Source of the DNA: Candidatus Martarchaeota archaeon
GTDB taxonomy: Archaea > Micrarchaeota > Micrarchaeia > Micrarchaeales > Micrarchaeaceae
DNA: 48,016 nt
Reading direction: 5' to 3'
Assembly: GCA_023473425.1 (NCBI GenBank)
Contig: JAMCYG010000003.1
Coordinates: 1 to 48,016 of the forward strand
In this document: positions 11,049 to 29,721 of the stretch, one piece after another
How the letters are laid out: each line of letters opens with the position of its first letter
Position numbering within the stretch: position 1 is the first letter of the stretch
Notes under the pieces: generated by a model
Seen by the model: only the letters and a program-made list of their open reading frames with translations
What the model was told of the DNA's origin: nothing
Database searches by the model: none
Translations under genes and position numbers: made by a program

Positions 11049-13439
11049 TCATCCCCAGATCTCAGCGGGGCTGTCGGAGTCCACCAGCTTCACGTGGCCT
11101 TCTGATATGTATATCCTAAGCTTGTCTATTTCTGGAGATGCATTCCTGAAGAGCATGTCGCGGAAGTCCTCGCGCCTGGAATTGTTCAGGAAAGCTATGT
11201 ATGTGGTAGACCCAGGGTATACCGGTATGTCGCTGAACTTGCTCGTCTTGGAGTATATGACAACGTAGGCCTTTTCGCCCTTGAGCGTCACAACCATATC
11301 AGCTGTGTCGCTCGCATCTATGTCTGTGAAGAAGTATGCGTGCGTGACAAGGTATAGTCTCAGCTTCTTGAATGTCGCGAGATACTCGATGTCGTGCCCG
11401 CTCTTGCTGATCCACTCCTTCGGAGCATACAACCCATCGACTGATTCCATAAGTCCGTTAAGTATTAGCTGGTCGAGTATGACGTCGAGATTGCTGAAGG
11501 TGAGGCTTACAGGAAGGTTGTTGTGCTTTATGTAGTCAGCGATAGAGTTCCTCAGCTCGGTTTGCGACAGCGGCATATACTTCCAGCGGTAGTGCAGGTT
11601 GACGCGGTCGAACACGTTTAGTATCTCGTTTGGCCTTATTGTTATCCTCTCCTTAGGCGGCGCAGGCATGTCAGCCACGTCTATGTAGAACTCGTCCCTG
11701 TTCGGGGCCTTTACGAGCTTGACCTCAAGCAGCACTATTATCAACACTATGGCTATCTCTATGTACTCTTTATTTATCGCGAGCGAGAAACCTTTGTTCG
11801 CACCGATATATGAATATGCGGCGCCAAGCGTAGCTATCGAGAAGTTGAGGCTCCCTTTCGGAACCACGGCCCCGCCAGGAAGCTGATAAACTATCTGGCC
11901 GCCGGACACGGTTCCTTTTTGAGGGTACTGGCCGTTCAGCGTGATCGTGTATGACATGTTGCTGATAGGCACGCCTCCTGCGGATATGCCAAGCGTGAAC
12001 CTTTTGCCACTGACGTTCTGGGCGATCATTGACAGGCTTATCTGCGGCACAGTAAACAGGGCAGCCCCGACAGTGTGGCCTGTGCTCACGACAGCCATGT
12101 ACTTCCCGCTCGGTATGTCAAACCTTACCTCTTTTATGAATGTAAAGTTGCCGCTGGCAGGCACAGACGACAGAGGTATGGTTTCAGCTACCTTCATAGC
12201 TGAATTGTACACAGTTATGACTGGCTGCTCGTACACAGGAGTGGATGAGCCGGTGAATATGTCTATGATTACTTGACTGTTTGCACCAGGAAGAACGCTC
12301 GTGCCCATCGACACTGTGCCGTTGAAGTGCGCCTCCGGCCTGAAGTAAACGTAGAACAGGCTATAGTTCTTTCCTGATGACGATGAAGTTGCATTGATAA
12401 TTATTCTGCCGTAAGCATTGTTTATTTTTGATATTCCGGTGCTGTTGACGCGCAGCGTAGAATTGTCCATCTGCAGCGCAAGAGTTCCTACGGCGCTGCG
12501 CACCGCGGTAGTATTTATGTAGGTGCTCCCGCTGGCATATTTCGGCATCCAGAACAGCTGATAGACAGCTTTGGCTATGTCGGATGCGAGCTGCTGCGGC
12601 GAATTCCATGACGTAGGATAGTTGGAGAATGCCACGAAAGAGCCATTTGCGTAGTTCACATAGCTTATGGCGCCGTACTGCGCCCCGTTGGTGAGATAGA
12701 ACGTGCTCTGGTTGAAGTAGTATCCAGGCGTGGCTACGGAACCGCGAGATGCAAACGAGAGGAACTGCGGTATCAGTGAGCTGTTGGTCGGCACCACTAC
12801 GGATCCGGAAAGCAGCAGGTTGGAAAGGCTTCCGCCGATGTATATGACACTGACTCCCTTGTCCATTAGGTACTGCATAGGCGTGGTGTTTTTGCCGCTC
12901 ATTGGGAGCAGCATTTGCTCAGGCATCAGCCCGCTCTGCACTATGAGTATGGAGCCGTTCCTTATCGAAGTGAGGTTGCCTAGCCCTATCGAGCTCAGAC
13001 CAGTGGAATTGATAAGCCCGTATCCTGCCAAATCCGACTGTATGTAGCTGTCGATTGCACCCGAATTGCCGCAGTTGTAGCATTCGCCGGCTGTCTGCAG
13101 CACGTATATGCTGCGCGGCACCTGGCTTGCGAACAATTCTGCCGTAGCATTTATCGCAGTCGCATTGGTGTACGAATAATTCAGTATTGCAACTGGCACG
13201 AGTGTGCCTGCGTTGCCGTAGTCCGCAGTAGTGAACGCGCTGAGAGCCCCGTACACCTTCGGAGGCAGAGGCGCCGTATAATTGCTTTGCGGCGCCGGCC
13301 CGGTCACGATGCCGCGTATCTCGAGTATGAAATAGGAGAATATCAGGACGATGATAACGGCTGCCGCTCCGGCTATCAGCAGCATGGTTTTCCTTGATTG
13401 GCGTGGCTTTTCCGCGCCTTTGTTGCTCTTTAACTGCAT
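11049..13439 (-). CDS. Large membrane protein, extracellular domains plus cytosolic C-terminal domain
   Basis: This 796-residue protein is the last gene of the transfer-machine cluster. A membrane helix at about 18-42 is followed by about 520 extracellular residues with many potential N-glycosylation sites and a CYNCGN motif. The first part alternates short hydrophobic strands and helices in a Rossmann-like way (SIYVLQT, GSILIVQSG, VSVIYIGGS). Later parts look like beta-sandwich repeats. A second membrane helix (about 568-590) leads to about 205 cytosolic residues that include a helical region (LRNSIADYIKHN onward) resembling a winged-helix fold. The layout suggests a surface sensor or structural anchor passing a signal inward. 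I do not recognise the family. It is 35 bases from the small basic protein gene. Confidence 0.6.
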   Translation of the reverse strand: MQLKSNKGAEKPRQSRKTMLLIAGAAAVIIVLIFSYFILEIRGIVTGPAPQSNYTAPLPPKVYGALSAFTTADYGNAGTLVPVAILNYSYTNATAINATAELFASQVPRSIYVLQTAGECYNCGNSGAIDSYIQSDLAGYGLINSTGLSSIGLGNLTSIRNGSILIVQSGLMPEQMLLPMSGKNTTPMQYLMDKGVSVIYIGGSLSNLLLSGSVVVPTNSSLIPQFLSFASRGSVATPGYYFNQSTFYLTNGAQYGAISYVNYANGSFVAFSNYPTSWNSPQQLASDIAKAVYQLFWMPKYASGSTYINTTAVRSAVGTLALQMDNSTLRVNSTGISKINNAYGRIIINATSSSSGKNYSLFYVYFRPEAHFNGTVSMGTSVLPGANSQVIIDIFTGSSTPVYEQPVITVYNSAMKVAETIPLSSVPASGNFTFIKEVRFDIPSGKYMAVVSTGHTVGAALFTVPQISLSMIAQNVSGKRFTLGISAGGVPISNMSYTITLNGQYPQKGTVSGGQIVYQLPGGAVVPKGSLNFSIATLGAAYSYIGANKGFSLAINKEYIEIAIVLIIVLLEVKLVKAPNRDEFYIDVADMPAPPKERITIRPNEILNVFDRVNLHYRWKYMPLSQTELRNSIADYIKHNNLPVSLTFSNLDVILDQLILNGLMESVDGLYAPKEWISKSGHDIEYLATFKKLRLYLVTHAYFFTDIDASDTADMVVTLKGEKAYVVIYSKTSKFSDIPVYPGSTTYIAFLNNSRREDFRDMLFRNASPEIDKLRIYISEGHVKLVDSDSPAEIWG

Positions 13440-13473
13440 CGCGCATTACCGCTGGCTAGTGTGATATGTGATC

Positions 13474-13614
13474 TCATACTGTATCTTTCTTCTTCCTTCC
13501 GAAAGCCTTCAGCAGCAACCTTGTAAACATGTTCTCCTGGCCCTCTGTCTTCTTGAGCACCTTGTATATCCTTACGTACTGGAGTCTGCGCCTTATCTTG
13601 ACGTAGTATTTCAT
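13474..13614 (-). CDS. Small basic protein, 46 residues, in transfer cluster
   Basis: This short gene begins one base after the stop of the coiled-coil protein gene and fills the gap before the 796-residue membrane protein, so it is very likely co-transcribed with both. The peptide starts MKYYVKIRRRLQYV and ends FGRKKKDTV. About a third of its residues are Lys or Arg and no membrane helix is present. Such a peptide could bind nucleic acid or membrane phospholipid, but this is a guess. It is a better coding candidate than most short frames because its boundaries fit the operon exactly. Confidence 0.5.
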   Translation of the reverse strand: MKYYVKIRRRLQYVRIYKVLKKTEGQENMFTRLLLKAFGRKKKDTV

Positions 13615-13615
13615 G

Positions 13616-14344
13616 CTAGCCCCTCAGCTCTATGTAGCCCTGAGACACCATCTTGTTGAGCACGTCCTCGACCCTGGTCGACACGATGTTGTGCGACTTG
13701 GAGAACTCGTTTATGTCTATGGTGCCGTCATGGGACTCTATCCAGTCCTCGACCATCACCATGAGCGACTCATCAGAGTAAGCCTCAAGCTTTGACATCC
13801 TTTCCTTTAGCGCTTTGTTGTCGCTCTCCAGCTGCGTGGCCCTGACAAGCAGCTCCTTGTTCGACGCCTGCAGCTCCAGGTTTAGCCTTTTCAGCTCCCT
13901 GTACTCGTTGAAGAGAGAATCGTAGTTGTTGAAGAGGGAGCTGTAGCTTGGCGAAAGCGCATTTATCACGTCGTCTATCGCAGAGTCGACGTGCTGGAAC
14001 AGGTCTGAATCGTCAACTACGTACAGGTCCGATACCAGCGAAAGAACAGACAGGAGGTTCTTGAGGACGAACAGCCTCCTCATCTTTACGCTAGCGTCCC
14101 TAGACCTTGTGTAGCTGACAGTCAGGGAATTGCGGCCCAACTCGAATATGTAGAATAAGTAGGGCCTCTTCTGTATGTCCCTGCTCTCTATCCTCACCAG
14201 TGTCAGCTTGTCAGCTTCTGCCCTCATGCTGTACATTTGCAGGGATGAAAATCGTTGAGATATATCCTTGAACTCGCCTTTTATGCTAGCCTTAAACTGT
14301 ATCTCTTCAGTGTCGGGCTCAGCCCCTTTCATCTCCTCAGCCAC
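13616..14344 (-). CDS. Coiled-coil cytosolic protein with C-terminal winged-helix-like domain
   Basis: This 242-residue protein has no signal or membrane helix. The first ~120 residues form a mixed domain. Residues ~130-190 are a long coiled coil (LFNEYRELKRLNLELQ, then leucine-spaced heptads), and the end (about 193-242) looks like a winged helix (MVEDWIESHDGTIDINEFS followed by VEDVLNKMVSQGYIEL). The start is GTG with a GGTG ribosome binding site; an ATG lies four codons on. A TATA-like box on the reverse strand near 14405-14415 could give this gene and the two after it an internal promoter. Its position inside the cluster suggests an adaptor or regulator of the machine. I do not recognise the family. 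Confidence 0.6.
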   Translation of the reverse strand: MAEEMKGAEPDTEEIQFKASIKGEFKDISQRFSSLQMYSMRAEADKLTLVRIESRDIQKRPYLFYIFELGRNSLTVSYTRSRDASVKMRRLFVLKNLLSVLSLVSDLYVVDDSDLFQHVDSAIDDVINALSPSYSSLFNNYDSLFNEYRELKRLNLELQASNKELLVRATQLESDNKALKERMSKLEAYSDESLMVMVEDWIESHDGTIDINEFSKSHNIVSTRVEDVLNKMVSQGYIELRG

Positions 14345-14448
14345 GCAAGCACACCCTTTGCAGACTCAGCGGTACTTCCCGCTGTCAGAATAATAAGCGG
14401 TTTTACTAATAAAATACCTTCGCACGCAGCCGCATAACACCATATAGT

Positions 14449-14949
14449 TCACTTCCTTGCGCTCTTGCTCCGGGCCTTCCTCCTGCGCACACTGCGGGCC
14501 TTTTCCGTGCCGATGCCAGCAGAAGGTACGCGAGTCGCAGTGCGGCTGGCAGAATCACGCGCCTTCCCGTGCTCTTCATGTATGTCAAGCGCAGGCATGT
14601 AGCTTATCTGAGCTAAGATGTACAGGAATAATATTAGGACCAAGCCGTATGCAAGCGCCAGCAGCTTCGAGGGGCTTACCAGCATCATTAGCGCAGTGAA
14701 TATCACGCCTATTCCCACATAGGTGAACTCCTTGCGCAAGTAGCTGTTCCTCAGCTTCTTGTACTTGGGATAGTCTTCCCTGCACACCACCAGATTGAAC
14801 TTCCGTTTATTGAGCGCACCCCTGCCGGTTATGGTCCTAGAGGCGTGTATCAGCGCCCTGTACGCCCTGAAAACAACATCTTCCCTTATCGGTATGCCCG
14901 GCTTCTCAGCGCCGCACATCACACATCTGTCCCCGGAATCAGCATCCAT
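14449..14949 (-). CDS. Membrane protein with N-terminal zinc-finger-like cysteines
   Basis: This 166-residue protein begins with CVMC (Cys9, Cys12) and a third cysteine in VVCREDYPKY (about 54), an incomplete treble-clef or zinc-ribbon pattern. Two membrane helices follow (about 76-95 and 97-115), then a basic, Ser/Arg/Lys-rich tail of about 50 residues ending RRRKARSKSARK. Both ends should be cytosolic. A GGTGG ribosome binding site precedes the ATG. It is 15 bases downstream of the small ATPase-related protein gene. The basic tail might touch nucleic acid near the membrane, which is a guess. No family was recognised. Confidence 0.55.
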   Translation of the reverse strand: MDADSGDRCVMCGAEKPGIPIREDVVFRAYRALIHASRTITGRGALNKRKFNLVVCREDYPKYKKLRNSYLRKEFTYVGIGVIFTALMMLVSPSKLLALAYGLVLILFLYILAQISYMPALDIHEEHGKARDSASRTATRVPSAGIGTEKARSVRRRKARSKSARK

Positions 14950-14964
14950 GCATCCACCTTTCCA

Positions 14965-15273
14965 TCAGCCGAAATCTATCGTAGCCTCGTAGACCCTCCC
15001 GGTCCTGGCTATTATTCTCTGCTCGTCCACAGAGCTCATTGCATCCGATATGGTAAGATCGTCGAGGCCCAGCCTCCTGAGCACATTGGTTATGCTCTCC
15101 CTGCTCAGGCCGGTCTTCTCCAGCATCGATATGAATGATATTATGTTGACGTGCCTGTGCGCTTTTTCCATGCTGCTAAACAGCGCTGCGAGCTCCTTCT
15201 CGTCTAGTCCGAACGCCACCAGCACGTGCCTGAGCTCCTGCCTTGATATTGTGTATGTCTTGGCTTCAGCCAT
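14965..15273 (-). CDS. Stand-alone copy of the ATPase C-terminal helical domain
   Basis: This 102-residue cytosolic protein matches the last ~65 residues of the ATPase encoded just upstream. Shared patterns include ISFISMLEKTGLS against ADFVNLMRDNGIT, NVLRRLGLDDLTISDAMSS against SFLKSLGIDDIIITRILSS, and LFSSMEK against IFKEMDE at the same spacing. It therefore looks like a duplicated domain, perhaps competing with or capping the ATPase or joining its hexamer. The ATG at 15273 lies inside the last codons of the ATPase gene (8-base overlap), which implies coupled translation. A GTG at 15282 would add three residues. The function is otherwise unknown. Confidence 0.7.
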   Translation of the reverse strand: MAEAKTYTISRQELRHVLVAFGLDEKELAALFSSMEKAHRHVNIISFISMLEKTGLSRESITNVLRRLGLDDLTISDAMSSVDEQRIIARTGRVYEATIDFG

Positions 15274-16783
15274 TCTCCGCACCTGTGGATGAGAGTATCC
15301 TCGTTATTATTATGTCGTCTATGCCAAGGCTCTTAAGGAACGAGACGATGTTCGGCACAGTTATGCCGTTGTCCCTCATGAGGTTGACGAAGTCCGCTAT
15401 CTTTATGCTCCTCTTCTGCTCGTCCATCTCCTTGAATATTGTGCTGATGGCGTCATTTGTGAAGTTGTACTCGACGAACTTGTTCTTAAGTTCCTCCTGC
15501 TCGAACTGGTAGTCCTTCTGTATGAGGTTGGCAGATATCTCGCTCTGCGTGAGAACCCCTGAGAGATCCAGGGTATAGACCTGCAGCGGCTCCTCGCCAT
15601 GTATCCTCTCGAGTACGAAAGTGCCAGGGAACTTCAAAGATGTCTGGAACGCCATAACAACTGCGGCCTGGCCCACTCCGAACTTGCTTATTTCAGAGCG
15701 TATGTGGTCAGAGAAGTTCATCGAGCCCTGAAGGTAATTGAGGAACTTCTCGAACTTTATGCTCAGTATGAAGTTAGTGCCGACGTTAGAGAATATCGCC
15801 TCGTTTATGTCTGTCGGGCTTTGCGACGCAACTATCAGGCCGAACTGGTACTTCCTGCCCTCCCTCACTATAGTTATCGCATCGCTCTTGTCATCGCTGG
15901 CCACTTTCCATGCCTCATCAAGCACTACCAGCGTCTTGAGCCCTTTGCTCTCGCTCCAGCCCTCGGACCTCATTATCTCTTTGAGCGTCTGCAGTATGAA
16001 GAGCGCTGCGAGCGCCCTGAACCTCTCGTCGGAAAGGTTCGATAGGTCTATATCGACGAGCCCGGATGACGCGAGCTTTGCTATGTTTATCGTGCTCTTC
16101 CTGGCAAAGTAGTCCTCGCCTTCGCGAGCGAACTGCCTGAGCCTATATATCGCGTTCTCTAGCTCTGCAGGGTACTGGTACGTGCCTTCCTGCAGCTTTT
16201 CCTGCAGCAGAGCTATGACGTTCTTCAGGTTCGGCGCATCCTTGCCTGCAGGAGCTTTCTCGGATATGTTGAAACCCATATTTACGTATGACTGCTCCAG
16301 GGCTTCTTCGGTAAGCCTCTTCTGCTCTGGGAACTCGCTTATATCTGTAAGTATGTCGAACGAATTCATTATCTGCTTGGTCCTGTCTATGGGCCTTATG
16401 CCTTCGACGTCCATTATGTTTATGCTGTCGCCCTTGCCGAGCGAGACCACTATACCGCCGCTCTGCGCTACCCACGACTTGTACTCGCCGGCCCAGTCTA
16501 TTATCACAGCGTTAGTGTTCCAGATGTAGCTGGCCCTTATGAGGAACGTCTTGACGAAGTAGCTCTTTCCTGCTCCGGTTATTCCGACAACAGCTATATG
16601 CGGGTTAGTCAGATTTAGGTGCGACCATGTGAACGGTATCTTGAATATCTTTGTAGTGCCTATGTATATCGACCTCATCATGTCCCCTAAGAGAGCCGTA
16701 GCCGGCGGCTCTGGCGGCCTTGAGAGGAACGACCTCTTAGCGATTTCGTTGCTCATTATCTGCTGAAGCTTAAGCATGCTCAT
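15266..16783 (-). CDS. VirB4/HerA-superfamily ATPase of the transfer machine (CedB-like)
   Basis: This is a motor ATPase of the VirB4/TraC/HerA group, which power type IV secretion and, as CedB in Crenarchaeota, DNA import. The 505-residue protein carries Walker A GITGAGKS (67-74), IIDWAGEYKSW (94-104), Walker B VVLDE (286-290) and the sensor-like VASQSPTD (318-325). There is no membrane helix. The membrane and N-terminal VirB4 parts seem to be supplied by the two proteins encoded just upstream, so VirB4 appears split. A C-terminal helical domain (about 435-500) is duplicated in the next gene. A GGTGA ribosome binding site precedes the ATG, and the upstream gene ends six bases away. A plain HerA helicase is less likely, because no HerA barrel or NurA partner is present. 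Confidence 0.82.
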   Translation of the reverse strand: MSMLKLQQIMSNEIAKRSFLSRPPEPPATALLGDMMRSIYIGTTKIFKIPFTWSHLNLTNPHIAVVGITGAGKSYFVKTFLIRASYIWNTNAVIIDWAGEYKSWVAQSGGIVVSLGKGDSINIMDVEGIRPIDRTKQIMNSFDILTDISEFPEQKRLTEEALEQSYVNMGFNISEKAPAGKDAPNLKNVIALLQEKLQEGTYQYPAELENAIYRLRQFAREGEDYFARKSTINIAKLASSGLVDIDLSNLSDERFRALAALFILQTLKEIMRSEGWSESKGLKTLVVLDEAWKVASDDKSDAITIVREGRKYQFGLIVASQSPTDINEAIFSNVGTNFILSIKFEKFLNYLQGSMNFSDHIRSEISKFGVGQAAVVMAFQTSLKFPGTFVLERIHGEEPLQVYTLDLSGVLTQSEISANLIQKDYQFEQEELKNKFVEYNFTNDAISTIFKEMDEQKRSIKIADFVNLMRDNGITVPNIVSFLKSLGIDDIIITRILSSTGAENG

Positions 16784-16788
16784 TCATT

Positions 16789-17619: not shown

Positions 17620-17620
17620 G

Positions 17621-18454: not shown

Positions 18455-18485
18455 CTGCAAGACCGAAGATGTGTGTTCTCATTAA

Positions 18486-18500: not shown

Positions 18501-18515
18501 TCTTTTTGAGCACGC

Positions 18516-20315: not shown

Positions 20316-20323
20316 ACTATCAC

Positions 20324-21367
20324 CTACACGACTGTGCTCAATAATGCCATGAAGCTGACCCTCTCGCCTATGGCACTAGAGAAGTCAGTTATGAACGCTT
20401 CCAGTATTGTAAAATTAAGGAAAGGTATGAATGTAAGCCCTGCTATTATATATCCAAGGCCTGCCGCAAAGGCGAGGCCTGCCGCGCCCGTAGGATCAAA
20501 TACAAATCCCAGCGTCGCGCCGGCAAGTGCGCCGGCAGTTCCAAGGAAAGACAACGGCGAAAGCGAGGCATCGATATAACCGTATGTCAGGCTTGTTATG
20601 AGCGGATAGACGAGGCCCAGGCCAAGTCCGAAAGCGATCATAGCTCCGCCGAATCTTCTCGAGAATCCCAGCGTCCTGGCTATCAGGCCGAGCACCAGGA
20701 AGAACGCGAGAAAGAGCAGCGAGCCCGACAGCAGCACGGTCTGCACCTGATTTAGCAGCAGCATAGTTATTATTCCAACGAACAGTATTCCGACCATTGA
20801 CTCGAAGTCCCTGGGCAGTATGTCGGTATTCGCGCTCGCGCTTATGTTGTACATGTTAGGCACAGAGAGTTTGAAGGCGAGGTTCGGATCTGCGGAGCCA
20901 ATCACAGTAGCCGCATAGTATGTAGTTATGAAGTAGTCGCCGGCGTTGCTGTTAAAGTACGCAAGGTCGCATGCAGATATGGCATATATGTCTGAGGCAG
21001 AGGAGCACGCGCTCGTCGGCAGCAAGCCCGCAGAGCTGTAAGCATGGCTGACTTTCAGCATGAACAGTGAAGAGAGCGCTACGAATATTAGTATCATCAC
21101 CAGCGAAAGCAGCGCCTCGTAAATCTGCATCCTGGACCAGCTTCTTGCCGTAGGGCTGCCGACAAGATAGCCTATCATATACACGAGGCCTGCAACCCCG
21201 AATACAAGCAGCACTGCTGCGAATGCGACTGGAAGCCATGATGCAGCGTTGAATGGGAGAGACTGCAGCAGCACAGGCTGCATAGTCAGGAATGCAGGAT
21301 GGGAAAGGCCAATGCTGGCGGTGTGCAACCCCGAACCAGGCATCACAAAATTTTGCATCTGCAGCAT
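20324..21367 (-). CDS. VirB6/TrbL-like polytopic protein E
   Basis: This 347-residue protein has about seven membrane helices and little soluble part, and is the most compact of the six paralogues. The first core helix ends with a loop holding SRMQIYEALLS, and the shared signature reads ARTLGFSRRFGGAMIAF, then GLGLVYP. The extracellular loop between them (about 110-190) contains two cysteines (TSACSSASD and ISACDLAY) that could form a disulfide. A GGTGG ribosome binding site precedes the ATG, and the next gene starts eight bases after the stop. VirB6 and TrbL form the inner-membrane channel of type IV systems, and CedA is the archaeal counterpart. The match is by topology and motif order. Confidence 0.6.
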   Translation of the reverse strand: MLQMQNFVMPGSGLHTASIGLSHPAFLTMQPVLLQSLPFNAASWLPVAFAAVLLVFGVAGLVYMIGYLVGSPTARSWSRMQIYEALLSLVMILIFVALSSLFMLKVSHAYSSAGLLPTSACSSASDIYAISACDLAYFNSNAGDYFITTYYAATVIGSADPNLAFKLSVPNMYNISASANTDILPRDFESMVGILFVGIITMLLLNQVQTVLLSGSLLFLAFFLVLGLIARTLGFSRRFGGAMIAFGLGLGLVYPLITSLTYGYIDASLSPLSFLGTAGALAGATLGFVFDPTGAAGLAFAAGLGYIIAGLTFIPFLNFTILEAFITDFSSAIGERVSFMALLSTVV

Positions 21368-21374
21368 GCCACCA

Positions 21375-22517
21375 CTATATGAGCTTCTTGAAGGCAGAGG
21401 TTCCGCTCAGGCTCTGCGCGCCGAGGTAATCTCCCATTATCTCGGCAAAGTCCAGCGATACTATAAACGATATGAACACGTCAAACAAGATAAATGCTAC
21501 TGGAGATATGACACTGGATATCGTCCCGTTTATTATGCCTTTGGAGAAGGTGCTGATAGCACTCTCAATATAATTCACAAAGAACGACCCTATGTTGTAC
21601 AGCGCAGAAAGAGTTACTCCGCTTGGCCCATAGTTATTGAAGAAACCGTTGACTGCGAACGGCTGCGTCAATGTCACTGGCGCTTCCGTGCATATGCTGC
21701 TGCCTGTGCACAGCATGGCGTGCAGCAGCAGCGGGAACACTATGTAAAGGCCGAGGAAAATTCCAAGGAAAGCCCCGCCCGCGGCCCTGGTCCATGGAAG
21801 CGCCCTGAGCACCAGCCCAAGGTAGAAGAATAATGGGAAGAGCCCGTATATTATGCCAAGTATTACAGGCACAGCTATCATTATGCCGACCATGCCCCCG
21901 GCTATGGAGAACATGTTGTTGATTGGTGTCATGACTGCGACGATGCCCTGATACGGCGTTGTCTGAATCCCGAAGCCGTTTGGCGAATACTGTATGGTAA
22001 TCGAGGCTATGAAGTTTAGGACGTCCTGATAGCTGCCTATGCTTACGAGCGCAGGCGCCGATGTGTACAGTGCAGTTATAGACAGAGCGTTGCAGTCTTG
22101 GTAGAATATGTTGGAGCTTATACCGCTTAGTGTTGCGGCATAGCCTGTGTTGAGCGATCCGTCGGCTGACAGCGTACCGATGAACACCACTGCTATTATC
22201 ACAGTTATTGCTATCTCTCCTATTTCATTCCTCATGAACCTTTTCAGGGTTTGTATATCGAAGCCGTACCCTATAGCGGCAACAAGCCCTATGACGGATA
22301 TCATCGCAAGCAGCACTATCAGCGTTATGTTGATTATGCTCGATATACCAAACTGGGTCGGCTGCTGTATGACAGTATTGCAGAAGCCGTTCGGTCCGTT
22401 GCTAGGAGTGGATGCCGATGCAGTGCCTGGGACTGCAGCAATTGCGAGGACAGCTGCAGCTATGACTAACGCAAAAATGGCCATGGGCCTGCGCTTCACC
22501 ACTTTTCCTACAGCCAT
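21375..22517 (-). CDS. VirB6/TrbL-like polytopic protein D
   Basis: This 380-residue protein begins with a signal-like helix, and I chose the ATG at 22517, preceded by AGGTG. An earlier GTG at 22526 is possible. It has about seven membrane helices. The Glu-bearing loop is RFMRNEIGEIAIT, and the shared signature is LRALPWTRAAGGAFLGI, then GLYIVFP. Extracellular cysteines are scattered (NGFCN, YQDCN, LCTGSSICTEA). Spacing to both neighbours is short (13 bases upstream, seven downstream), so it is in the same transcript. It probably forms part of a hetero-oligomeric membrane channel with its paralogues. Confidence 0.6.
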   Translation of the reverse strand: MAVGKVVKRRPMAIFALVIAAAVLAIAAVPGTASASTPSNGPNGFCNTVIQQPTQFGISSIINITLIVLLAMISVIGLVAAIGYGFDIQTLKRFMRNEIGEIAITVIIAVVFIGTLSADGSLNTGYAATLSGISSNIFYQDCNALSITALYTSAPALVSIGSYQDVLNFIASITIQYSPNGFGIQTTPYQGIVAVMTPINNMFSIAGGMVGIMIAVPVILGIIYGLFPLFFYLGLVLRALPWTRAAGGAFLGIFLGLYIVFPLLLHAMLCTGSSICTEAPVTLTQPFAVNGFFNNYGPSGVTLSALYNIGSFFVNYIESAISTFSKGIINGTISSVISPVAFILFDVFISFIVSLDFAEIMGDYLGAQSLSGTSAFKKLI

Positions 22518-22530
22518 GCTGCACACCTTT

Positions 22531-23949
22531 TCATATGAACTTCCCCAGGCCTGCGAGGCTCGTATCGCCTCCCATGAGCCCTGACAGACCTATTATTGCA
22601 CTGAGCGTTATTATTATGTTGATTATCGGAAGAAAGTATGCAGTCACTCCAGATATGCCGTACGCCTCAGCCACCTTAAACACCAACGCTGAAGCCTCGC
22701 TGGGCTTGCATGCGTTGCCATTAGGAGGGATGGAACCGCCGGGATTGGACGGATAGGGCAGCGGGAAGCTCGGCGCTGACGACACGAATGCACCGAAGGA
22801 GCCGGCTATGCCAGAGTAGACGCTGGAGAACGGCACCAGTAGCCATCCGGCGTCGGTCTCTTCCATTGTTGTTATCGGGTTAGAGCCGGTGATGTAGCAG
22901 CCGTTCCCGTTGTCGTTCAAGACATCGCTCATTTTAGGCTGCACGAAGAAGTTAAGGGTGTAAGGGCCACCAGACAGCGGAAGGTTTGTTATTGAATTGA
23001 ACCCATATGTAGAATTGTAGCCGGACGAGACTCCATTGCCTAGGGAGAGGTATTCTATGGAGAACACCGTCGGGTATATGATTATAGCGCCTATGGCTAC
23101 GGCTATGAGTAAGCCGCCTATCCTTCTAGTGAAGAACGTAGCCCTAAGGAGCAGTCCGGCGAACAGCAGCCATGGCCATGCATATAGGAATACCTGAATC
23201 ATCACGAGCTGGGCCACGAACGACTCTATGGCTGTGCTGAACAACACTATCAACTGGTTGGCGCTGCTGTAGATCAGCCTATATCCTGCGTATGGCTTGG
23301 CCGAGAAGGTGAACATGAAGAATGGCGGTCCCGGAGTGAGAGGAGTGGCACATTGCACTACTGTGCCCACACACCACGCCATCGACGGGGCGAGCTTTTC
23401 CAGGAATCCCAGATAAGCGTCAAAGACGAAGAGGCTGTTCAGGTTCTGGACAGACTGGTTAGTGAGGTTCGCTATCACCACGCCTGAAGCTGCGAGCGGA
23501 TAGTCGGCCTGCTGTGTTACAGTGGAGTGCTTGGAGACTATATCGCATATGCCGTTGTTCGTCTGCGTTTCGAGCACAGACCCTTTGCTATTATTGAGAA
23601 GCGATAGCATCGAATTGCTCTCGAGATTGGTGCACATGCTTGACATAGTAGTATGGTTCATCAGAGTGGTCGCATCCAGCGACTGATAGAACACAGACGA
23701 GAAAGTCAGTACGGTGAAGAGCACGATGAAGGCTATCACCGCAGTGCCGAACGCCTGGTAGAGCTCCCCGACTGCCGATTTCTTGACGCTGTTGTTCTGC
23801 AGCACTACGCCTATCGCGTACCAGAGGCCAACGATTCCGATGTCGAGCGCGATAGCTAGGAAGACGAGAGGGAGCAGGTCGGACCTTACGCTGCTGAAGC
23901 TGGACAGCAGCGGAAACAGGCTTCCGACCAAGGCAACAGCACCACTCAT
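22531..23949 (-). CDS. VirB6/TrbL-like polytopic protein C
   Basis: This 472-residue protein has the largest loops of the compact paralogues. The N-terminal helix is followed by the Glu loop VKKSAVGELYQAF (Glu62). A long extracellular part of about 140 residues, with several cysteines, comes before the shared signature LRATFFTRRIGGLLIAV, then GAIIIYP. A second extracellular loop of about 130 residues is rich in Asn, Pro, Ser and Gly and has two cysteines (GNGCYIT and GNACKPS). A final membrane helix ends the protein. No function beyond a channel-type membrane component can be stated from sequence. Confidence 0.6.
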   Translation of the reverse strand: MSGAVALVGSLFPLLSSFSSVRSDLLPLVFLAIALDIGIVGLWYAIGVVLQNNSVKKSAVGELYQAFGTAVIAFIVLFTVLTFSSVFYQSLDATTLMNHTTMSSMCTNLESNSMLSLLNNSKGSVLETQTNNGICDIVSKHSTVTQQADYPLAASGVVIANLTNQSVQNLNSLFVFDAYLGFLEKLAPSMAWCVGTVVQCATPLTPGPPFFMFTFSAKPYAGYRLIYSSANQLIVLFSTAIESFVAQLVMIQVFLYAWPWLLFAGLLLRATFFTRRIGGLLIAVAIGAIIIYPTVFSIEYLSLGNGVSSGYNSTYGFNSITNLPLSGGPYTLNFFVQPKMSDVLNDNGNGCYITGSNPITTMEETDAGWLLVPFSSVYSGIAGSFGAFVSSAPSFPLPYPSNPGGSIPPNGNACKPSEASALVFKVAEAYGISGVTAYFLPIINIIITLSAIIGLSGLMGGDTSLAGLGKFI

Positions 23950-23996
23950 TTAATCATCCGTTCATTCGATATTCATACACACTTCGCTCTCATCTC

Positions 23997-25382
23997 TCAT
24001 ATAGAACCCCAGAAGCTTGAAGCTCCGACTATGCCGTTGTTCAGCGCCTTCGTGAAGCTCATTGCGAAACCTATCGTCACCGCGAAGTTGAGCGCGAACA
24101 GCATTATTGCAGTAAATATGTACTGTGACATTGTCTTTACAAGGCTCAATGTAGTGTATGGCGCAGTGAATATTATTGTTATAGATTTGAAGCCTGCCAG
24201 CTGCGTGTAGAGGTAAAGCGGAGAGAGCGGGCTGCTGAGGCTCGTAGGCACCGAGACGCTTGAGTTGACCGAACCAGAGGCGTAGCTTGATATTCCGCCA
24301 AAGTATGAGCTTGGACTGATGGACAGCAGGTTGTACGAGCTGCCGATGTACTGGTAGTTAGGATTGCATGACGCTAGCGATGAGGATGTGCAAGGCGTGA
24401 ATATCCAGTGTATCACGTAGCTGTCGAAGGCTATTGTTAGCGGGTATATGAGATATGCAGCTATCGCTATCGCTATGAATACGTTAGCGGCGCTTCTCAA
24501 TCCATTACCGCCGTAGCCTGCATATGCGATTGACCTGAGCACAAGGGCTACGGGCAACAGGACTGTGAATGCGGTATACCTTATGAATGGTATGAGAATG
24601 TACTGCAGCATCAGCGTGCCAAGCGATGTTATCAGCAGTGTCGAGAACACAATAAGGTACTCATCCGCGAGTAGCGCAAGTGGTATGGATGGGTCGAAGT
24701 CAGGGCTTATGGTTACGAGCTTCCCGCTTGTGGAGAGCGCGAGGGACTGCAGCTTCTGGACGATCTTGCCGCCGCTCTCCGAGGCGTATTCCCCGATTGC
24801 AGTAATTATCCTGGAAGATAAGGAGAGCGACACAGAGTCCGAATACACCTGCGACAGCAGGCTGAGCCCGGTGTTGAACGTGAGGTTGCCCACGTAATAG
24901 TCTGCATAAGTGAATGGGTCCATGCTCTGCCCCGTGAGCTTTGTGCTGAGGTTGCTCACAGTGCTGCATGCAAATGTGGTGAAAGAGAGCAGTACTAGTA
25001 TAATAATTATGCTCAGGAATAGCTGCGAGATTTCAGTCTTGCTCATCTCTGATACTCTGGAGCTAACGGAGCGCGGCAGCAGCTTAGAGAGCACGTATAC
25101 TATTGATGTTATGAGCAGACCCACTATGACTACGAGGAAGTTTATGCTGAGCCAGCTATTTGTATAGTCGCTTGCGCCGTACAGTGCGCATGTTGGAGGG
25201 GCGACATAGGACGACCCGCTGAAGGATATGCTCTGGCTCTGCGCCGCTGCGGGGTACACGTGCGCGAGCAATGATGCAACAATCAGCACAATTGCAACGG
25301 CTGCAAGTGCTATGGTGAAGTAGCGCCCGTTTCTGCCTTTGGCGCCGTCACTGTGTAAGTGCGTATCGCTCATATCAATCAT
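23997..25382 (-). CDS. VirB6/TrbL-like polytopic protein B
   Basis: This 461-residue protein is the most divergent of the six. The N-terminal signal-like helix (about 21-43) is followed by the loop with SEMSKTEISQLF (Glu117). The shared signature is stretched: LRSIAYAGYGGNGLRSAANV, then AAYLIYP. An extracellular loop before the last helices contains the pair CTSSSLASC. The start codon overlaps the stop of the upstream gene (ATGA), which implies coupled translation. A second in-frame ATG is three codons on. It belongs to the same transcript as the neighbouring paralogues. Confidence 0.58.
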   Translation of the reverse strand: MIDMSDTHLHSDGAKGRNGRYFTIALAAVAIVLIVASLLAHVYPAAAQSQSISFSGSSYVAPPTCALYGASDYTNSWLSINFLVVIVGLLITSIVYVLSKLLPRSVSSRVSEMSKTEISQLFLSIIIILVLLSFTTFACSTVSNLSTKLTGQSMDPFTYADYYVGNLTFNTGLSLLSQVYSDSVSLSLSSRIITAIGEYASESGGKIVQKLQSLALSTSGKLVTISPDFDPSIPLALLADEYLIVFSTLLITSLGTLMLQYILIPFIRYTAFTVLLPVALVLRSIAYAGYGGNGLRSAANVFIAIAIAAYLIYPLTIAFDSYVIHWIFTPCTSSSLASCNPNYQYIGSSYNLLSISPSSYFGGISSYASGSVNSSVSVPTSLSSPLSPLYLYTQLAGFKSITIIFTAPYTTLSLVKTMSQYIFTAIMLFALNFAVTIGFAMSFTKALNNGIVGASSFWGSI

Positions 25383-26701
25383 GCCAGTTTGAATCTACCT
25401 ATTCCAGTCCTAAGCTTGCCTCCCAGCATTCCCGCAATCGCGTTTACCGCCGCTACAGTTATTATAAGATCAAATATGAAAAGTATTAGCTGGAGTATCT
25501 GGTCGAGCACATCAGTCGTTATCAGGTTGATTGCGGGATATATGCTGTTCATGCTGCTGAGTCCTGCGTTGACACCATTGTCCAGTGCCCCTGTGTCGCT
25601 CAGTGTCCTGCCTGTGACTAGCTGCAGAGTACCCAGATTAAGGCCAGTGCCCACATCAGATGCAAAGCATATAAGCGATCCGACCACACCGCCGCAGTTC
25701 GGCGTATACGATATTTTACCAACACTCATGGTAGACTGCATGTAGTCAGTGATCGGCATGTTGAGCCCCACAAGCAGCATAGGATACACTATTGCTATTC
25801 CTATGGCTATCGCTATAAGGGTGCCGCCGATGCCCCTAACTATAGGTATTGCCCTCAGCAGGACGCCGAGGGGCAGCAGCACAAGGAGCGATATGCCCAT
25901 GAAAGCGCCAAAGAAATCTTCCTGAATCTGGAGTATAGTAATGACAGGCAGGGTGACCAGTGTCATGATGTCTCCGAGCAGGCTGATTCCCGGGCCAGCA
26001 AGAGGGCCGAGCTCAAGCAGCCTGCTCACAAAAACGCTAGCCGAGAAGCCCGTATGCACCCATGATATGAATGGTGGAAGAGGAGGCACAGGAAATGGGG
26101 TCCACATGTTTACGATCGTGCCCTTTAGGAAACCTACTCCGAGAGATACTCCTACCAGCGAGCCCAGTGAGGAATAAGCAGAGGTAAGCTGCGGTGAGAG
26201 GTATCCATTGTTGGTTGTAGAGTACAGCAAACCGAGAGTGTTGGTTATCTCTGCTCCGGCGCCCACCCTGCTGCCAGTAAGCGTGCCAGAAGCCTCGACC
26301 TGTGATAAAGGATATCCTGCGAGTGCGACCGCAACGCTTCCTAGTATCACTAGCACGGCGAATATGAAAACGATTATTGCTATTGTCTTTACGGTTTCTC
26401 TCATCTCGCTCTTGTACCAGCCTTTCAAGGATTCCAGGCCGAAGACCTGCCCGAGCATGAATGCTATGCCCACAAACGCGAAGGAAAGCAGAAGCGCTAT
26501 CATCGATAGAGATAGGGATTCAGCGACGCAGCTGCCTATGTCGCTCCCCACATTGCTGTTGATGGCGCATGTCACTGATATGCTGGAAGGCGGCAGAGTG
26601 CTTGTCTGAGCAGCAGCGCTCATCGCCCCCGAGGAAGTAAATATCAGTATTGCCGCTAGAACGAAGGCAGTATATACGGCTATCCGGTGCACTCTTCGCA
26701 T
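25379..26701 (-). CDS. VirB6/TrbL-like polytopic protein A, first gene of the cluster
   Basis: This 440-residue protein opens the 15.7-kb minus-strand cluster. A signal peptide (about 6-32, ending SAAAQ) leads to a short extracellular segment with two cysteines (Cys45 and Cys58). The first core helix and the Glu loop KSEMRETVK (98-105) follow, then a long extracellular loop, then the shared signature LRAIPIVRGIGGTLIAI (282-298) with VYP at 305-307, then two more helices. The upstream 140-bp region is divergent from the Ala/Lys-rich protein gene and has a leftward TATA-like gatatttaag near 26731-26740. This is consistent with one main promoter for the cluster. Confidence 0.6.
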   Translation of the reverse strand: MRRVHRIAVYTAFVLAAILIFTSSGAMSAAAQTSTLPPSSISVTCAINSNVGSDIGSCVAESLSLSMIALLLSFAFVGIAFMLGQVFGLESLKGWYKSEMRETVKTIAIIVFIFAVLVILGSVAVALAGYPLSQVEASGTLTGSRVGAGAEITNTLGLLYSTTNNGYLSPQLTSAYSSLGSLVGVSLGVGFLKGTIVNMWTPFPVPPLPPFISWVHTGFSASVFVSRLLELGPLAGPGISLLGDIMTLVTLPVITILQIQEDFFGAFMGISLLVLLPLGVLLRAIPIVRGIGGTLIAIAIGIAIVYPMLLVGLNMPITDYMQSTMSVGKISYTPNCGGVVGSLICFASDVGTGLNLGTLQLVTGRTLSDTGALDNGVNAGLSSMNSIYPAINLITTDVLDQILQLILFIFDLIITVAAVNAIAGMLGGKLRTGIGRFKLA

Positions 26702-26841: not shown

Positions 26842-28191
26842 ATGTTGCCGATTATAGCAGTGCTGTTGAGCTTCGGGGCAGTATACGCCTACATTCCAAT
26901 CATAATTATAGTAATACTAATAGCTGCAGCTGCGGGCCTTTCCAGAGGCACCGACATTTTCGCGATATTCGGGATAGGAACGCTTATAGGAGCAGGCGCA
27001 GTCAACAAGAAAGGGGGATTCAGCAGCGCTTTCAAGACTAAGAATGATCTTATTTCAAGGAGGGCGAATGCGGGCAAGTTTGGCTCAGGCTTAAAAAAAT
27101 CGACTAAAGGCATCGCCGCTTTCCGCGCCGCACGCGCCGCTGCTACTGCAAAAACTGCAGCTGCAGCTGCCAGAAGGACCGCAATAGCCAGCGGTGGGAT
27201 GATGAGTGCAGCTGCAATCGCAGCAGCAGTCAAGAAGGCGGGAGGAAACAGGAAGTACAGGAAGGCGTATGAAAAATCACTCAAGGAAGAGTTGCACAAT
27301 TTTGCAGCAGCGGGATCGCCCTTGGCTCCCGGATTGAAGGGAGTGAAAGGAGCAGCGGCCGGACTTGGCGCTGCAGGTGCTGCAGGCATTGCTGGTGCCG
27401 GTGCAGCTGGCGCTGCCGCAGCAGGAAAGGGTACAACCGACAGCGAAAAGTCTAAGTGGGCGACAAGGATAAATGCGAAGGAGTACCTGATATCAGAAGC
27501 AAAGGGCATGAAGGAAGGCCAAAAGTACAAGAGCAAGACGATTATAAAGCCGACTTCGCCGGAAGCTACCGTCGATATACTTGCGGTAAAAGCAAACCCG
27601 AGGAATCTTGATGAAAACATAAGGGACGCTGCCAACAAAAAAGATGCAAAGCTGTACCAGAAGGAGCAGCAGGCGGCATGGAATGAGCTGCTCAGGAGAA
27701 GCAGGAAAGATGAAAGCGCACGTACCGCAGTCAACGGTCTGCTAAATATTTACGGCCTGGAGCACCCGAAAGCAAACAGCAACAACGCGTATGTAGCGTC
27801 AGGCAATAGGGACCAATTCGTGAAGACATTCGAGGAAAGGTACAACAATTATAAGGAAGCAGGATGGTCCCCAAAGAAGCGCAGAGAGGTAAGGGAAGCT
27901 GAGGAAGCGGCATGGCTGAAGAAGACAATAGACAGCGATGCCGGGCGCGGGGACAGCAGGCTGCCGAAGCTAGATGAATTGTACAAAAGGCCGGACCTTG
28001 CCAGATCCCTTAGAAATCCAGGGCAGGATATATATGAGGCAGGCAGCTTCTCGAAGGCAATGAAGAATAAGGCTAAGAAGGTTAAGGAAGTCACCGATAG
28101 CACAGGCAAGCCGATATCAAATACAACGCTGGAGGGCAGCGGCTGGAAGAAATATTACAAGGAAACGCACAAAGGCAAGAAGAAGCCGTAG
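26842..28191 (+). CDS. Ala/Lys-rich membrane-anchored protein, divergent from transfer cluster
   Basis: This 449-residue protein begins with two or three short hydrophobic segments (about 1-55) that should anchor it in the membrane. The rest is soluble and basic: a Lys/Arg/Ala-rich stretch (about 80-140) that resembles the low-complexity tails of histone H1, a Gly/Ala linker (about 165-200), then a mixed charged domain of about 250 residues ending KGKKKP. The basic Ala-rich region could bind DNA next to the membrane channel, or this could be a scaffold. Both are inference. Only the orientation and shared promoter region link it to the machine. I know no homologue. Confidence 0.55.
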   Translation: MLPIIAVLLSFGAVYAYIPIIIIVILIAAAAGLSRGTDIFAIFGIGTLIGAGAVNKKGGFSSAFKTKNDLISRRANAGKFGSGLKKSTKGIAAFRAARAAATAKTAAAAARRTAIASGGMMSAAAIAAAVKKAGGNRKYRKAYEKSLKEELHNFAAAGSPLAPGLKGVKGAAAGLGAAGAAGIAGAGAAGAAAAGKGTTDSEKSKWATRINAKEYLISEAKGMKEGQKYKSKTIIKPTSPEATVDILAVKANPRNLDENIRDAANKKDAKLYQKEQQAAWNELLRRSRKDESARTAVNGLLNIYGLEHPKANSNNAYVASGNRDQFVKTFEERYNNYKEAGWSPKKRREVREAEEAAWLKKTIDSDAGRGDSRLPKLDELYKRPDLARSLRNPGQDIYEAGSFSKAMKNKAKKVKEVTDSTGKPISNTTLEGSGWKKYYKETHKGKKKP

Positions 28192-28331: not shown

Positions 28332-29078
28332 TCATGACTTGAGCAGCGGGAATCTCTTCATGTAGAACTCGCTCTGCAGTACTACAAGGAAGGGTATTAT
28401 AAACAAGGAGTTGAAGACCAGGAGAGCTATACCAGAGAACTCAACTCCGAGTGCACCCTGCCCCCCTATCAACGTGAAAAGCTCATCGACGAGGCTCAGC
28501 AGGGCTATTCCAATCACGAGCCAGAGCAGGAAATAATCAAACCTCTTGATGAAGAATACGGCGCTTTTCTTCATCGCCCTTAGTATCTTTGAATCGTCTA
28601 TGACGATAGATGCAGGCGCGTAGAAGAAGAAAGGCGCAAGCACGAGGCCTACGATCGAAGTTATCAGCGCAGAGTGCCCGGTAGGCTGCGTGAACAGCCC
28701 TACAAGCGCGACTATCACTGTATAGATTATAAGAGTAGCAAACACAAGGCCCGTATAGTTTTCCAGCCCCTTCAGCACCTCTCTGCTTATCCCGGAGAAA
28801 GTGCGGCTGTGTTTCACGAGAACGTTGATAGATACCATCGCAAAGCTAAGGAATAGAGTCGAAAGGAATACCGCAACAACAATTATTATTGTAGTAAGCG
28901 GATTCAAGTTCTGGAGAGTGCTTGCCGACCTTATAAATATGCCGCCAAGGTCAGTAAATGTTGGGAACGAAGCAAATATAGGTATAAGGAATGCCACTAT
29001 AAATGCCAGGGAGAACAGTAGGAGCATGCGTATGTTCTTCACATACATATCGATTGCATACCTCACTACGTTGGTCAT
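28332..29078 (-). CDS. Six-helix membrane protein of unknown function
   Basis: This 248-residue polytopic protein has about six membrane helices. I use the ATG at 29078 with a GGTG ribosome binding site nine bases upstream; a GTG three codons earlier is possible. The layout, with a conserved amphipathic region between helices (SRTFSGISREVLKGLENYTG) and a cytosolic loop DDSKILRAMKKSAVFFIKRFDY, recalls small archaeal membrane families annotated only as domains of unknown function. It has no signature of the VirB6-like set. It lies between the transfer cluster and the pilin gene in the same orientation, so a role in assembly or export is possible but unproved. Confidence 0.55.
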   Translation of the reverse strand: MTNVVRYAIDMYVKNIRMLLLFSLAFIVAFLIPIFASFPTFTDLGGIFIRSASTLQNLNPLTTIIIVVAVFLSTLFLSFAMVSINVLVKHSRTFSGISREVLKGLENYTGLVFATLIIYTVIVALVGLFTQPTGHSALITSIVGLVLAPFFFYAPASIVIDDSKILRAMKKSAVFFIKRFDYFLLWLVIGIALLSLVDELFTLIGGQGALGVEFSGIALLVFNSLFIIPFLVVLQSEFYMKRFPLLKS

Positions 29079-29252
29079 GCGTGGCACCAGTTTGCGAAGC
29101 CTAATGGCTATTTTCTAATCTCTAATAAGCTATATAATGATATTCAAACACGCCGTTCGCAACTGTATTGAAGCGTATCATGCATGAAAAGCATGGAAAC
29201 ATGAAAGACCTGCTCGTGGCTGCGCCATAACAAACTTCATGGCATGCGCCAA

Positions 29253-29271
29253 AGAAGGTCAAAGACCTTCT
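29253..29271 (-). terminator. Hairpin terminator after pilin-like gene
   Basis: AGAAGGTC (29253-29260) and GACCTTCT (29264-29271) pair perfectly around a three-base loop, 19 bases after the pilin stop. Reading leftward, T bases follow the stem. A dedicated terminator fits a small abundant structural protein. Confidence 0.55.
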
Positions 29272-29289
29272 AGGCAGTAGCAGGCAGCA

Positions 29290-29685
29290 TCAGCTGCCGC
29301 ACGCCTGCGATACTGAGAACGACGTGTTGCCCACGTTCGCGACTATACTCAGTATCGGCCCTGCAAGAAGCACTATTATTACGCCTATTATGCCACCAAG
29401 TATCAGGCCCATTGCATAGCCCTGGAGCGTGCCCTTCATGCCGCCAGTAGCATGGGATATGGCATATATCGTGCCGCCGAGCACTATGAGCGCGAGCGCT
29501 ATAACGAATATGACAGTGTTTATTATGTGGTATATGCTGCACACTTCATTGATTATGGTCTGCTCAGCATTGTAAGTTGCCCCTGCAAGTGACATCATGC
29601 TTAGCAGCGTAAGCACAGGAAGTATTATCTTCGCACTTAGCAGCAACTTATACGTTCGAGAAGAGGGTATTTTACCGGCAATCAT
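29290..29685 (-). CDS. VirB2/TrbC/CedA1-like pilin
   Basis: This is probably the pilus subunit of the machine. The 131-residue precursor has a long basic n-region (KIPSSRTYKLLLSAK), a hydrophobic core and a likely signal peptidase site SLAGA/TY near residue 36. The mature part is about 95 residues: two membrane helices (about 51-73 and 88-110) joined by a short glycine and lysine loop (ISHATGGMKGTLQG), with the second helix reading GYAMGLILGGIIGVIIV. This is the VirB2 fold and loop pattern. Two cysteines (49 and 129) flank the helices and could form a disulfide. I chose the ATG at 29685. A GTG at 29715 would give 141 residues and sits about 24 bases from the TATA-like box. Confidence 0.68.
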   Translation of the reverse strand: MIAGKIPSSRTYKLLLSAKIILPVLTLLSMMSLAGATYNAEQTIINEVCSIYHIINTVIFVIALALIVLGGTIYAISHATGGMKGTLQGYAMGLILGGIIGVIIVLLAGPILSIVANVGNTSFSVSQACGS

Positions 29686-29721
29686 ATAACACACGTCTTT
29701 GCCAAATTTTATCACTTATAC

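Follow-up and report, generated by a model that had tools for sequence, protein, structure and literature searches.

The Ced system of the Sulfolobales consists of CedA, CedA1, CedB, CedD and CedE. It is chromosomal, has no relaxase, and combines VirB4-like ATPases with the polytopic proteins CedA and CedE and the pilin CedA1, which is related to the N-terminus of CedA; CedB and CedD share the VirB4-type N-terminal part between proteins (PMC9905601, PMC11868833). The locus described here is like Ced in these respects, in the last of them probably. Ced itself is induced by DNA damage and imports DNA with Ups pili. Kinship between pilin and channel N-terminus has been published for VirB2/VirB6 as well as for CedA1/CedA (PMC9905601). 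Ted (TedA/TedB/TedC), found in Thermoproteales, likewise has pilin, VirB6-like and VirB4-like components (PMC9905601). In other descriptions of type IV secretion, VirB6 forms a homopentamer (PMC12857230).

The source genome is that of a Micrarchaeota archaeon. Micrarchaeota are tiny archaea, mostly attached to other archaea. The window, which is the whole analysed stretch of 48,016 nucleotides, holds a co-directional run on the minus strand at 11049-26701, in the order m440, m461, m472, m383, m347, m599, P1, P2, ATPase, d105, c166, b242, a796, with open reading frames confirmed where stated. Intergenic gaps within the run are mostly -17 to 55 bp. A first-pass annotation had counted 14 co-directional genes in 15.7 kb; the run is where it was said to be, and comprises 13 genes in 15.65 kb. 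The pilin gene lies upstream of it, at 29290-29715. The cluster is real, and because the same gene order is kept in other species, it is not a product of chance.

Probably, this cluster is a domesticated and vertically inherited translocation machine of the type IV secretion system (T4SS) kind, most closely related to crenarchaeal Ced, with a six-protein channel, P1/P2 as anchor, a pilin and ATPase-driven transport. Nearly all Micrarchaeota have it, with six channel proteins in fixed order, and so it probably serves as core equipment that transports DNA or protein through the envelope. The original suggestion of a Ced-like system with a gene count unlike known Ced stands, given a CedD-type ATPase, matches to CedA and CedE models, and six paralogues. 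In the open-access literature that was searched, no paper describes such a Ced- or T4SS-like cluster for Micrarchaeota.

The motor ATPase (15266..16783, minus strand) is of the CedD/CedB/VirB4 type by Pfam, NCBIfam and PDB matches, and does not have an N-terminal domain of its own. It matches DUF87 (4.5e-15), AAA_10 (1.6e-14) and the TraG P-loop (4.6e-8) in Pfam. Walker A (GITGAGKS, 67) and Walker B with its Glu (DEAWK, 289) are intact, and the catalytic residues are conserved across 13 homologues. CedD is the nearest named family (E 8.6e-24, best of 18,950 NCBIfam models), with CedB at 2.6e-15. Since the scores are below the NCBIfam equivalog cutoffs, the protein is a CedD/CedB homologue and not an equivalog. 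It had earlier been labelled as HerA/VirB4-type, and these matches bear out the VirB4/CedB type. A tblastn search of plasmids with the ATPase gave only weak DUF87/TraG-type matches; a plasmid origin was not found. The adjacent d105 (14965..15282, minus strand) is a free-standing protein paralogous to the C-terminal domain of the ATPase (HHalign 98.9%, columns 441-555 of the alignment).

The DUF87 domain also fits a HerA-type DNA repair or segregation motor that happens to have unrelated membrane genes beside it. Several HerA models match the ATPase, PADLOC and most PDB matches name HerA, and a Topo VI-B gene adjoins the locus. However, CedD scores 84 bits and HerA 58 bits, which makes CedD the closest curated family, with HerA behind. 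The PDB HerA chains align over some 60-150 columns each, whereas VirB4 (4ag5) spans columns 59-331. Pfam scans recognise no nuclease, and hence no NurA-like partner, among the other operon genes; the ATPase is strictly co-conserved with TM proteins and pilin, and a separate HerA-like gene is present on contig 7. HerA-NurA repair was rejected on model ranking and gene context, and a HerA-type repair or segregation motor is very improbable here.

Directly before the ATPase lie P1 (17621..18460) and P2 (16789..17619), both on the minus strand. As had been noticed at the outset, both have paired N-terminal membrane helices. In P1 this hairpin comes with a cytoplasmic alpha/beta domain, and in P2 with an alpha/beta domain that by Foldseek resembles the VirB4 N-terminal domain (model pLDDT 86.4). 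The two are paralogues (HHalign 99.6%). For the P2 model, the first of 350,542 PDB chains is 7o41_A, from the R388 T4SS inner membrane complex, which contains VirB4 (probability 0.93, E 0.11, not significant alone). P1/P2 match no family in a Pfam scan of 22 P proteins, and the P profile has no usable match among PDB sequences. Going by the structural model, P1 and P2 look like the separated N-terminal part of VirB4.

The pilin (29290..29715, minus strand) is VirB2/TedC-like by orthologue Pfam matches and profile comparison. It has a hydrophobic, signal-like N-terminal segment, two TM helices and a short polar loop with Lys. The signal peptide of TedC is cleavable, and the N-terminus here suggests the same (PMC9905601). 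The VirB2-like two-helix pilin of the first-pass annotation is confirmed through orthologues: among 11 aligned, 6 match PF04956 TrbC/VIRB2 (best 9.7e-8) and 6 match PF18895 T4SS_pilin, while the copy in the window itself matches no Pfam pilin family. It is via these models that a CedA1-like two-helix pilin is recognised. The pilin profile reaches 88% against R388 and R46 VirB2, with the next target at 0.6%. Among its PDB matches TrwL alone is related to conjugation (E 0.02, rank 2). In two families, f18 and f20, the pilin is located directly upstream of P/ATPase.

The six polytopic proteins are CedA/VirB6-like and all on the minus strand. From array position 1 to 6 these are m440 (25379..26701), m461 (23997..25382), m472 (22531..23949), m383 (21375..22526), m347 (20324..21367, AlphaFold model pLDDT 83.5) and m599 (18516..20315), which in this species has an additional Cys-containing region at its N-terminus. 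They were originally called paralogues, and all are indeed homologous pairwise (HHalign 98.2-99.8%). In one of them, m461, the N-terminal part is also a homologue of the pilins (HHalign 92%).

Run against whole genomes, the CedA and CedE models give 17 and 15 matches, and all of the 29 (of 32) that could be placed fall within arrays of the paralogues. The best are the m383 counterpart in Micrarchaeum A_DKE (NCBIfam CedA, 8.3e-7), placed at array position 4 by gene order in locus L064, and the m599 orthologue of family f15 (CedE, 1.5e-6). The comparison with CedA-type proteins that had been proposed as a check on the paralogues does lead to the arrays. Its scores are 15-27 bits, well short of the cutoffs of 330 and 400 bits. 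These models match nothing in six genomes without the system, nor in the window's own genome.

A Pfam scan of 96 paralogues found no family, with TrbL in 0 of 96, and a PDB sequence search with the paralogue profiles had no usable match. The profiles also failed to match the two VirB6 sequences of R388 and R46 or, in the same shallow comparison, the proteins of Sulfolobus conjugative plasmids. As the ATPase itself reaches only 14.6% against the VirB4 control, this profile test is insensitive and too shallow to count. Foldseek with the m347 model places R388 chains, VirB6 going by length, at ranks 2 and 4 (E 0.9, not significant alone).

By sequence comparison, the number of paralogues is constant and each position is specific. 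All 42 Micrarchaeales loci that hold both array ends have six paralogues in the same order, and the family-wide set has 30 runs of six and none longer. The proteins at any one array position form an old lineage of their own, with 13 label changes versus 92 in shuffles. Every intact array has exactly six genes, except for one damaged case. Locus L184, with five paralogue genes and a disturbed gap, is the sole array not resolved to six. Apparent departures in L075, L081, L091 and L100 were rejected after stop-to-stop translation, as ORF-calling artefacts or frameshifts. What is new here is the exactly-six array, the old lineage behind each position, and the presence of two six-gene arrays in many families, some of these with one ATPase match.

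Two arrays with one ATPase match could also mean that each of the six paralogues makes a separate channel, or that they are alternative modules, and that they do not form one complex. The paralogues are very divergent, which agrees with this, and the VirB6 arrays of Rickettsia vary (PMC2653234). But there are always six, in constant order, and arrays are duplicated or moved whole, as six. In ARM-1 the array stayed intact while the remainder of the cluster dispersed. This makes separate channels unlikely. That the six would instead assemble into one heteromer we infer from counting and co-conservation only.

Of the remaining genes, a796 (11049..13439, minus strand) has a TM segment, an extracellular region of ~530 aa, a second TM segment and a cytoplasmic domain, and is conserved alongside the ATPase in each of 20 loci compared. 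The product of b242 (13616..14344, minus strand) is cytoplasmic, with a coiled coil and a helical C-terminus that may be winged-helix. c166 (14449..14949, minus strand) has Cys pairs near the N-terminus, possibly a zinc ribbon, and a TM hairpin. The 6-TM protein t251 (28332..29087, minus strand) is conserved just upstream of the array. k449 (26842..28191, plus strand) was missing from the first-pass annotation; it has a hydrophobic N-terminus and a Lys/Arg-rich body (82 K+R vs 41 D+E). Since 9 other loci have a homologue between m599 and P1, transcribed in the same direction as these, it is probably an accessory part of the system. Several other families have, next after the array, a gene for a very large lipoprotein that may belong to the surface or to a tip.

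Judged by gene content, the system is class-wide chromosomal core equipment. The ATPase is found in 32 of 32 near-complete genomes of the family, and in 89 of 96 of the phylum sample. The gene order, for which a check in other Micrarchaeota had been suggested, is kept: of 80 loci, 70 have P1-P2-ATPase-d105-c166 one after another and 40 have an unbroken row of 12 genes, and the array order holds in 42 of 42 loci with both ends. ATPase, P and paralogues are jointly present in 31 genomes and jointly absent in 6. Two lines with complete genomes have the gene set, ARM-1 (cocultured with Metallosphaera) and Micrarchaeum A_DKE. A mobile element was considered and rejected; this is a chromosomal core locus, many genomes have the Topo VI-B gene beside it, and sequence identity decreases with decreasing kinship. 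Related genomes (loci L171, L189, L191-L193) also have a separate four-gene module of a pilin, one CedA-like protein, P and ATPase. The ATPases of this module match CedB (8/8).

The relaxase family PF03432, the one family searched, is absent in 8 genomes, with a positive Lactococcus control. The VirD4-type coupling ATPase PF02534 is absent in 7 of 8, the single match being inside a giant surface protein. ComEC was searched for and not found either. Conjugation is unlikely given these absences. The lack of relaxase and VirD4-like ATPase first seen in the window extends to its own genome (PF03432, PF02534). It had been taken to favour import or exchange over conjugation, and uptake of nucleic acid had been suggested as a gain for the cell. 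Import rather than export, and nucleic acid as cargo, are unsupported, and the absence argues only against classical conjugation.

DNA is nevertheless the a priori favourite cargo, because all nearest characterised relatives move DNA. An apparatus for import or exchange was the initial reading; with DNA as cargo, serving repair or nucleotide supply, it is a fair candidate at somewhat under even chances. CedD, the closest ATPase family, is import-only in Saccharolobus (PMC11868833), and the missing ComEC fits too. Yet direction is not readable from sequence, CedE-type proteins also serve export (PMC11868833), and the conserved operon is without repair genes.

The same absence of relaxase, T4CP and ComEC would suit a machine that secretes proteins or effectors into an archaeal host, like the T4SS of Patescibacteria, which is essential for epibiotic growth and mostly without relaxases (PMC12102498, PMC12857230). 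The system is core in nearly all genomes of these host-dependent archaea, and the huge lipoprotein after the array could be a surface or tip protein. We find protein secretion doubtful, however: CedA/B/D/E move DNA, no effector gene was recognised, and T4SS protein export usually employs a coupling ATPase.

In the Ced-like machine that we favour, P1/P2 would be the membrane-anchored N-terminal part of VirB4, split from the motor, and would link the cytoplasmic ATPase ring to the membrane. Six different CedA-like proteins would form one heteromeric channel or pilus platform, each in its own place, whereas bacterial VirB6 is a homomer. The pilin would extend this channel outward. The ATPase would then drive DNA (or protein) across the single Micrarchaeota membrane while two cells are in contact.

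Exchange of material between DPANN archaea and their partner cells is an open question in the field, and the nanotubes, barrels and attachment organelles of cocultures have not been assigned to proteins (PMC11329633, PMC11420986). The cluster is a named, conserved and testable gene set. Cryo-tomography of Microcaldus ARM-1 found a large, 21-nm barrel in the envelope where intercellular nanotubes dock (PMC11329633). The ARM-1 genome has the components tested, namely the ATPase with downstream genes, P1/P2 and the six-gene array, so the machine may be this barrel. Only tentatively do we propose the full picture: an ancestral Micrarchaeota T4SS/Ced-like contact machine for macromolecular exchange with partners, perhaps identical to the ARM-1 barrel, in which six CedA/VirB6-type subunits that cannot replace one another make up a single heteromeric ring above a VirB4-type motor. 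A channel whose six VirB6-type subunits are fixed and all different would, if true, be a novel T4SS architecture.

Among known systems, the nanohaloarchaeal giant SPEARE proteins, with a VirB4/TraG domain, are another proposed T4SS-like device of DPANN archaea (PMC10266531). These are giant fused surface proteins, and a VirB6 array is not described for them. One Micrarchaeota genome (G139) also has a SPEARE-like giant protein, independent of this cluster.

The T4SS of Patescibacteria (CPR) is similarly conserved in ultra-small host-dependent cells, most clusters have no relaxase, and one component is expanded, with 6 pilins in Ca. S. epibionticum and arrays of 2-11 VirB2 (PMC12102498, PMC12857230). 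There it is the VirB2 pilin that is expanded, whereas in Micrarchaeota it is the VirB6-like channel, and CPR has VirD4 and VirB8-type parts. By analogy, the parallel with this essential T4SS suggests that both radiations recruited the same machine class. The Rickettsiales rvh T4SS has a row of 4-5 strongly diverged VirB6 genes (VirB6a-e) by VirB3-VirB4 (PMC2653234). It differs in having five genes, one of which is lost in R. massiliae, with extended proteins in a full bacterial T4SS; the Micrarchaeota array is six, constant, and repeated as whole arrays.

Ted is a minimal single-copy set, and resembles the separate four-gene module, not the six-array machine. Compared to Ced, the Micrarchaeota proteins have scores well under the NCBIfam equivalog cutoffs, P1/P2 probably carry the N-terminal part as proteins of their own, and d105, c166, b242, a796 and t251 are extra conserved genes. 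Finally, where Ced has one or two channel proteins, the Micrarchaeota array has six.

A single co-directional gene cluster was described here in the first-pass annotation. Such a cluster exists, although with 13 rather than 14 genes: the open reading frames between 11049 and 26701 are tightly packed on the minus strand, with t251 (a 6-TM protein) and the VirB2-like pilin gene (29290-29715, minus strand) upstream. The window is contig C6 of a 734.7 kb genome in 27 contigs. Homologous loci in public records mostly carry the label Candidatus Micrarchaeota; Micrarchaeum A_DKE and ARM-1, both with complete genomes, are among them. Most of the genomes are MAGs.

Across 80 named loci the recurrent order is t251-m440-m461-m472-m383-m347-m599-P1-P2-ATPase-d105-c166-b242-a796. 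Here m440 to m599 are six CedA/VirB6-like polytopic paralogues, P1 and P2 are paralogous TM-hairpin proteins, and the ATPase (15266-16783, minus strand) is of the CedD/CedB/VirB4 motor type. In 70 of the 80 loci P1 to c166 follow one another directly, in 40 twelve genes stand in a row, and the median gap between genes is 6 bp. More distant families keep P2, the ATPase, c166, b242 and a796 together, with the array elsewhere. ARM-1 has three separate blocks: the ATPase block at ~427 kb, the array at ~345 kb and P1-P2 at 450 kb.

The ATPase is present in 32/32 near-complete genomes from the window organism's family, and in 89/96 genomes of a phylum sample. Its identity is 66-77% within the family, 62-68% in a second family and 52-59% in most listed matches beyond. 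This smooth fall, together with a Topo VI-B gene as conserved neighbour, fits vertical inheritance and speaks against a mobile element. P was found in 31 of 37 scanned genomes; the six that lack it also lack the ATPase and the paralogues. That reduced genomes keep the system so strictly points to an important role.

The six paralogues are all mutually homologous. By E-value, their best NCBIfam models are CedA (1.7e-5) and CedE (4.2e-5). Run against whole genomes, these two models gave 32 matches, 29 of them inside arrays already located and three unplaced, and none in six genomes without the system. The natural structures closest to the m347 model include R388 T4SS chains, at non-significant E-values; judged by length, these are taken to be VirB6. 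Given sub-cutoff scores and no Pfam family, the VirB6 identity is a weak link. Pilin orthologues match TrbC/VirB2, and against R388, R46 and Sulfolobus plasmid proteins the pilin profile finds VirB2 at 88%, with the next at 0.6%. The N-terminal part of m461 resembles the pilin family (92%), the same relation as reported for CedA1/CedA and VirB2/VirB6 (PMC9905601).

An automatic count found 30 runs of exactly six paralogue genes and none longer. Runs with fewer genes come from a four-gene module with one paralogue each, from contig ends, or from arrays broken by ORF calling. All 42 of the 42 named loci with both array ends have the six in order; four irregular arrays among the named loci are artefacts or frameshifts, and L184 stands as the one apparent exception, showing five genes along with a disturbed gap. 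A tree of 139 proteins (22 arrays, 7 single genes) groups by array position, with 13 label changes where the minimum is 6 and shuffles give 92. Because of long branches and imperfect clades for positions 1, 3, 4 and 6, details are unsure, but the clustering by position is sure. This means that the six differentiated positions are older than the families compared. Going only by counting, we infer that the six would form one heteromeric assembly.

Many families have two arrays, and two different six-gene arrays occur within single genomes (G138, G167, G169, G139, G152, G175 and others). In G152, G167, G169 and G175 the ATPase search gave a single match at E 1e-15, as if two channels shared one motor.

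Among NCBIfam models the ATPase ranks CedD first (8.6e-24), followed by HerA (4e-16), VirB4 (2e-15) and CedB (2.6e-15); none of these scores reaches its equivalog cutoff. Walker A and B are present in the ATPase, an N-terminal domain is not; the matched part of CedD starts at residue 222. The missing part, a pair of TM helices with an alpha/beta domain, would be provided by P1/P2. For the predicted P2 model (pLDDT 86), the top Foldseek match in the whole PDB is 7o41 chain A (probability 0.93), from the R388 T4SS inner-membrane complex; at E 0.11 this is among the weak links. 7o41 is also the source of the VirB4 N-terminal domain in a Saccharolobus comparison with CedB/CedD (PMC11868833). The C-terminal domain of the ATPase also exists as a separate copy, d105.

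Some further features were noted in other loci and in the window. In six loci (L181, L182, L179, L184, L201, L203; families f3, f4, f5, f10, f20) the last array gene is followed by one for a protein of 1300-1730 aa that has a signal peptide, a lipobox-like Cys and a repeated CC motif, probably a huge array-linked surface lipoprotein. It is absent from this place in Micrarchaeales. In genome G139, L224 carries an a796 paralogue (14752-16788) and, at 7-9816, encodes a giant protein (at least 3269 aa) that resembles nanohaloarchaeal SPEARE proteins. It combines an extracellular part and a single TM helix with an ATPase domain of VirB4/TraG type at the C-terminus, whose tail is coiled-coil-like. 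In the window, carbamoyltransferase and PMT-type glycosyltransferase genes (29903-33366) adjoin the pilin and may concern surface glycan modification; the former is kept at that place in several relatives. There are also an exosortase/archaeosortase-like gene (5639-7234; PF09721, 4e-20) and an S-layer-like outer domain protein (46540-48009; PF05124). A phage-type integrase gene (39072-40016) directly downstream of the tRNA-Leu 3' end suggests that an element has integrated; a second copy of att is absent from the window.

A search for PF03432 found no relaxase, and the window genome has no VirD4-type ATPase, which makes classical conjugation unlikely. ComEC was not found either. By analogy, the system could serve DNA exchange, as in Ced, or protein delivery, as suspected for Patescibacteria; both readings are alive.

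A second module, made of a pilin, one CedA-like gene, P and an ATPase, occurs in ARM-1, A_DKE, G239, G190, G059 and G035 (loci L171, L187, L189, L191-L193). Its CedA-like proteins form one clade apart from the six positions, except for a long-branched ARM-1 copy. It was not found in the window genome (~89% complete), and in G239 (family f23) it is the only version found. This four-gene module is close to the Ced/Ted minimum.
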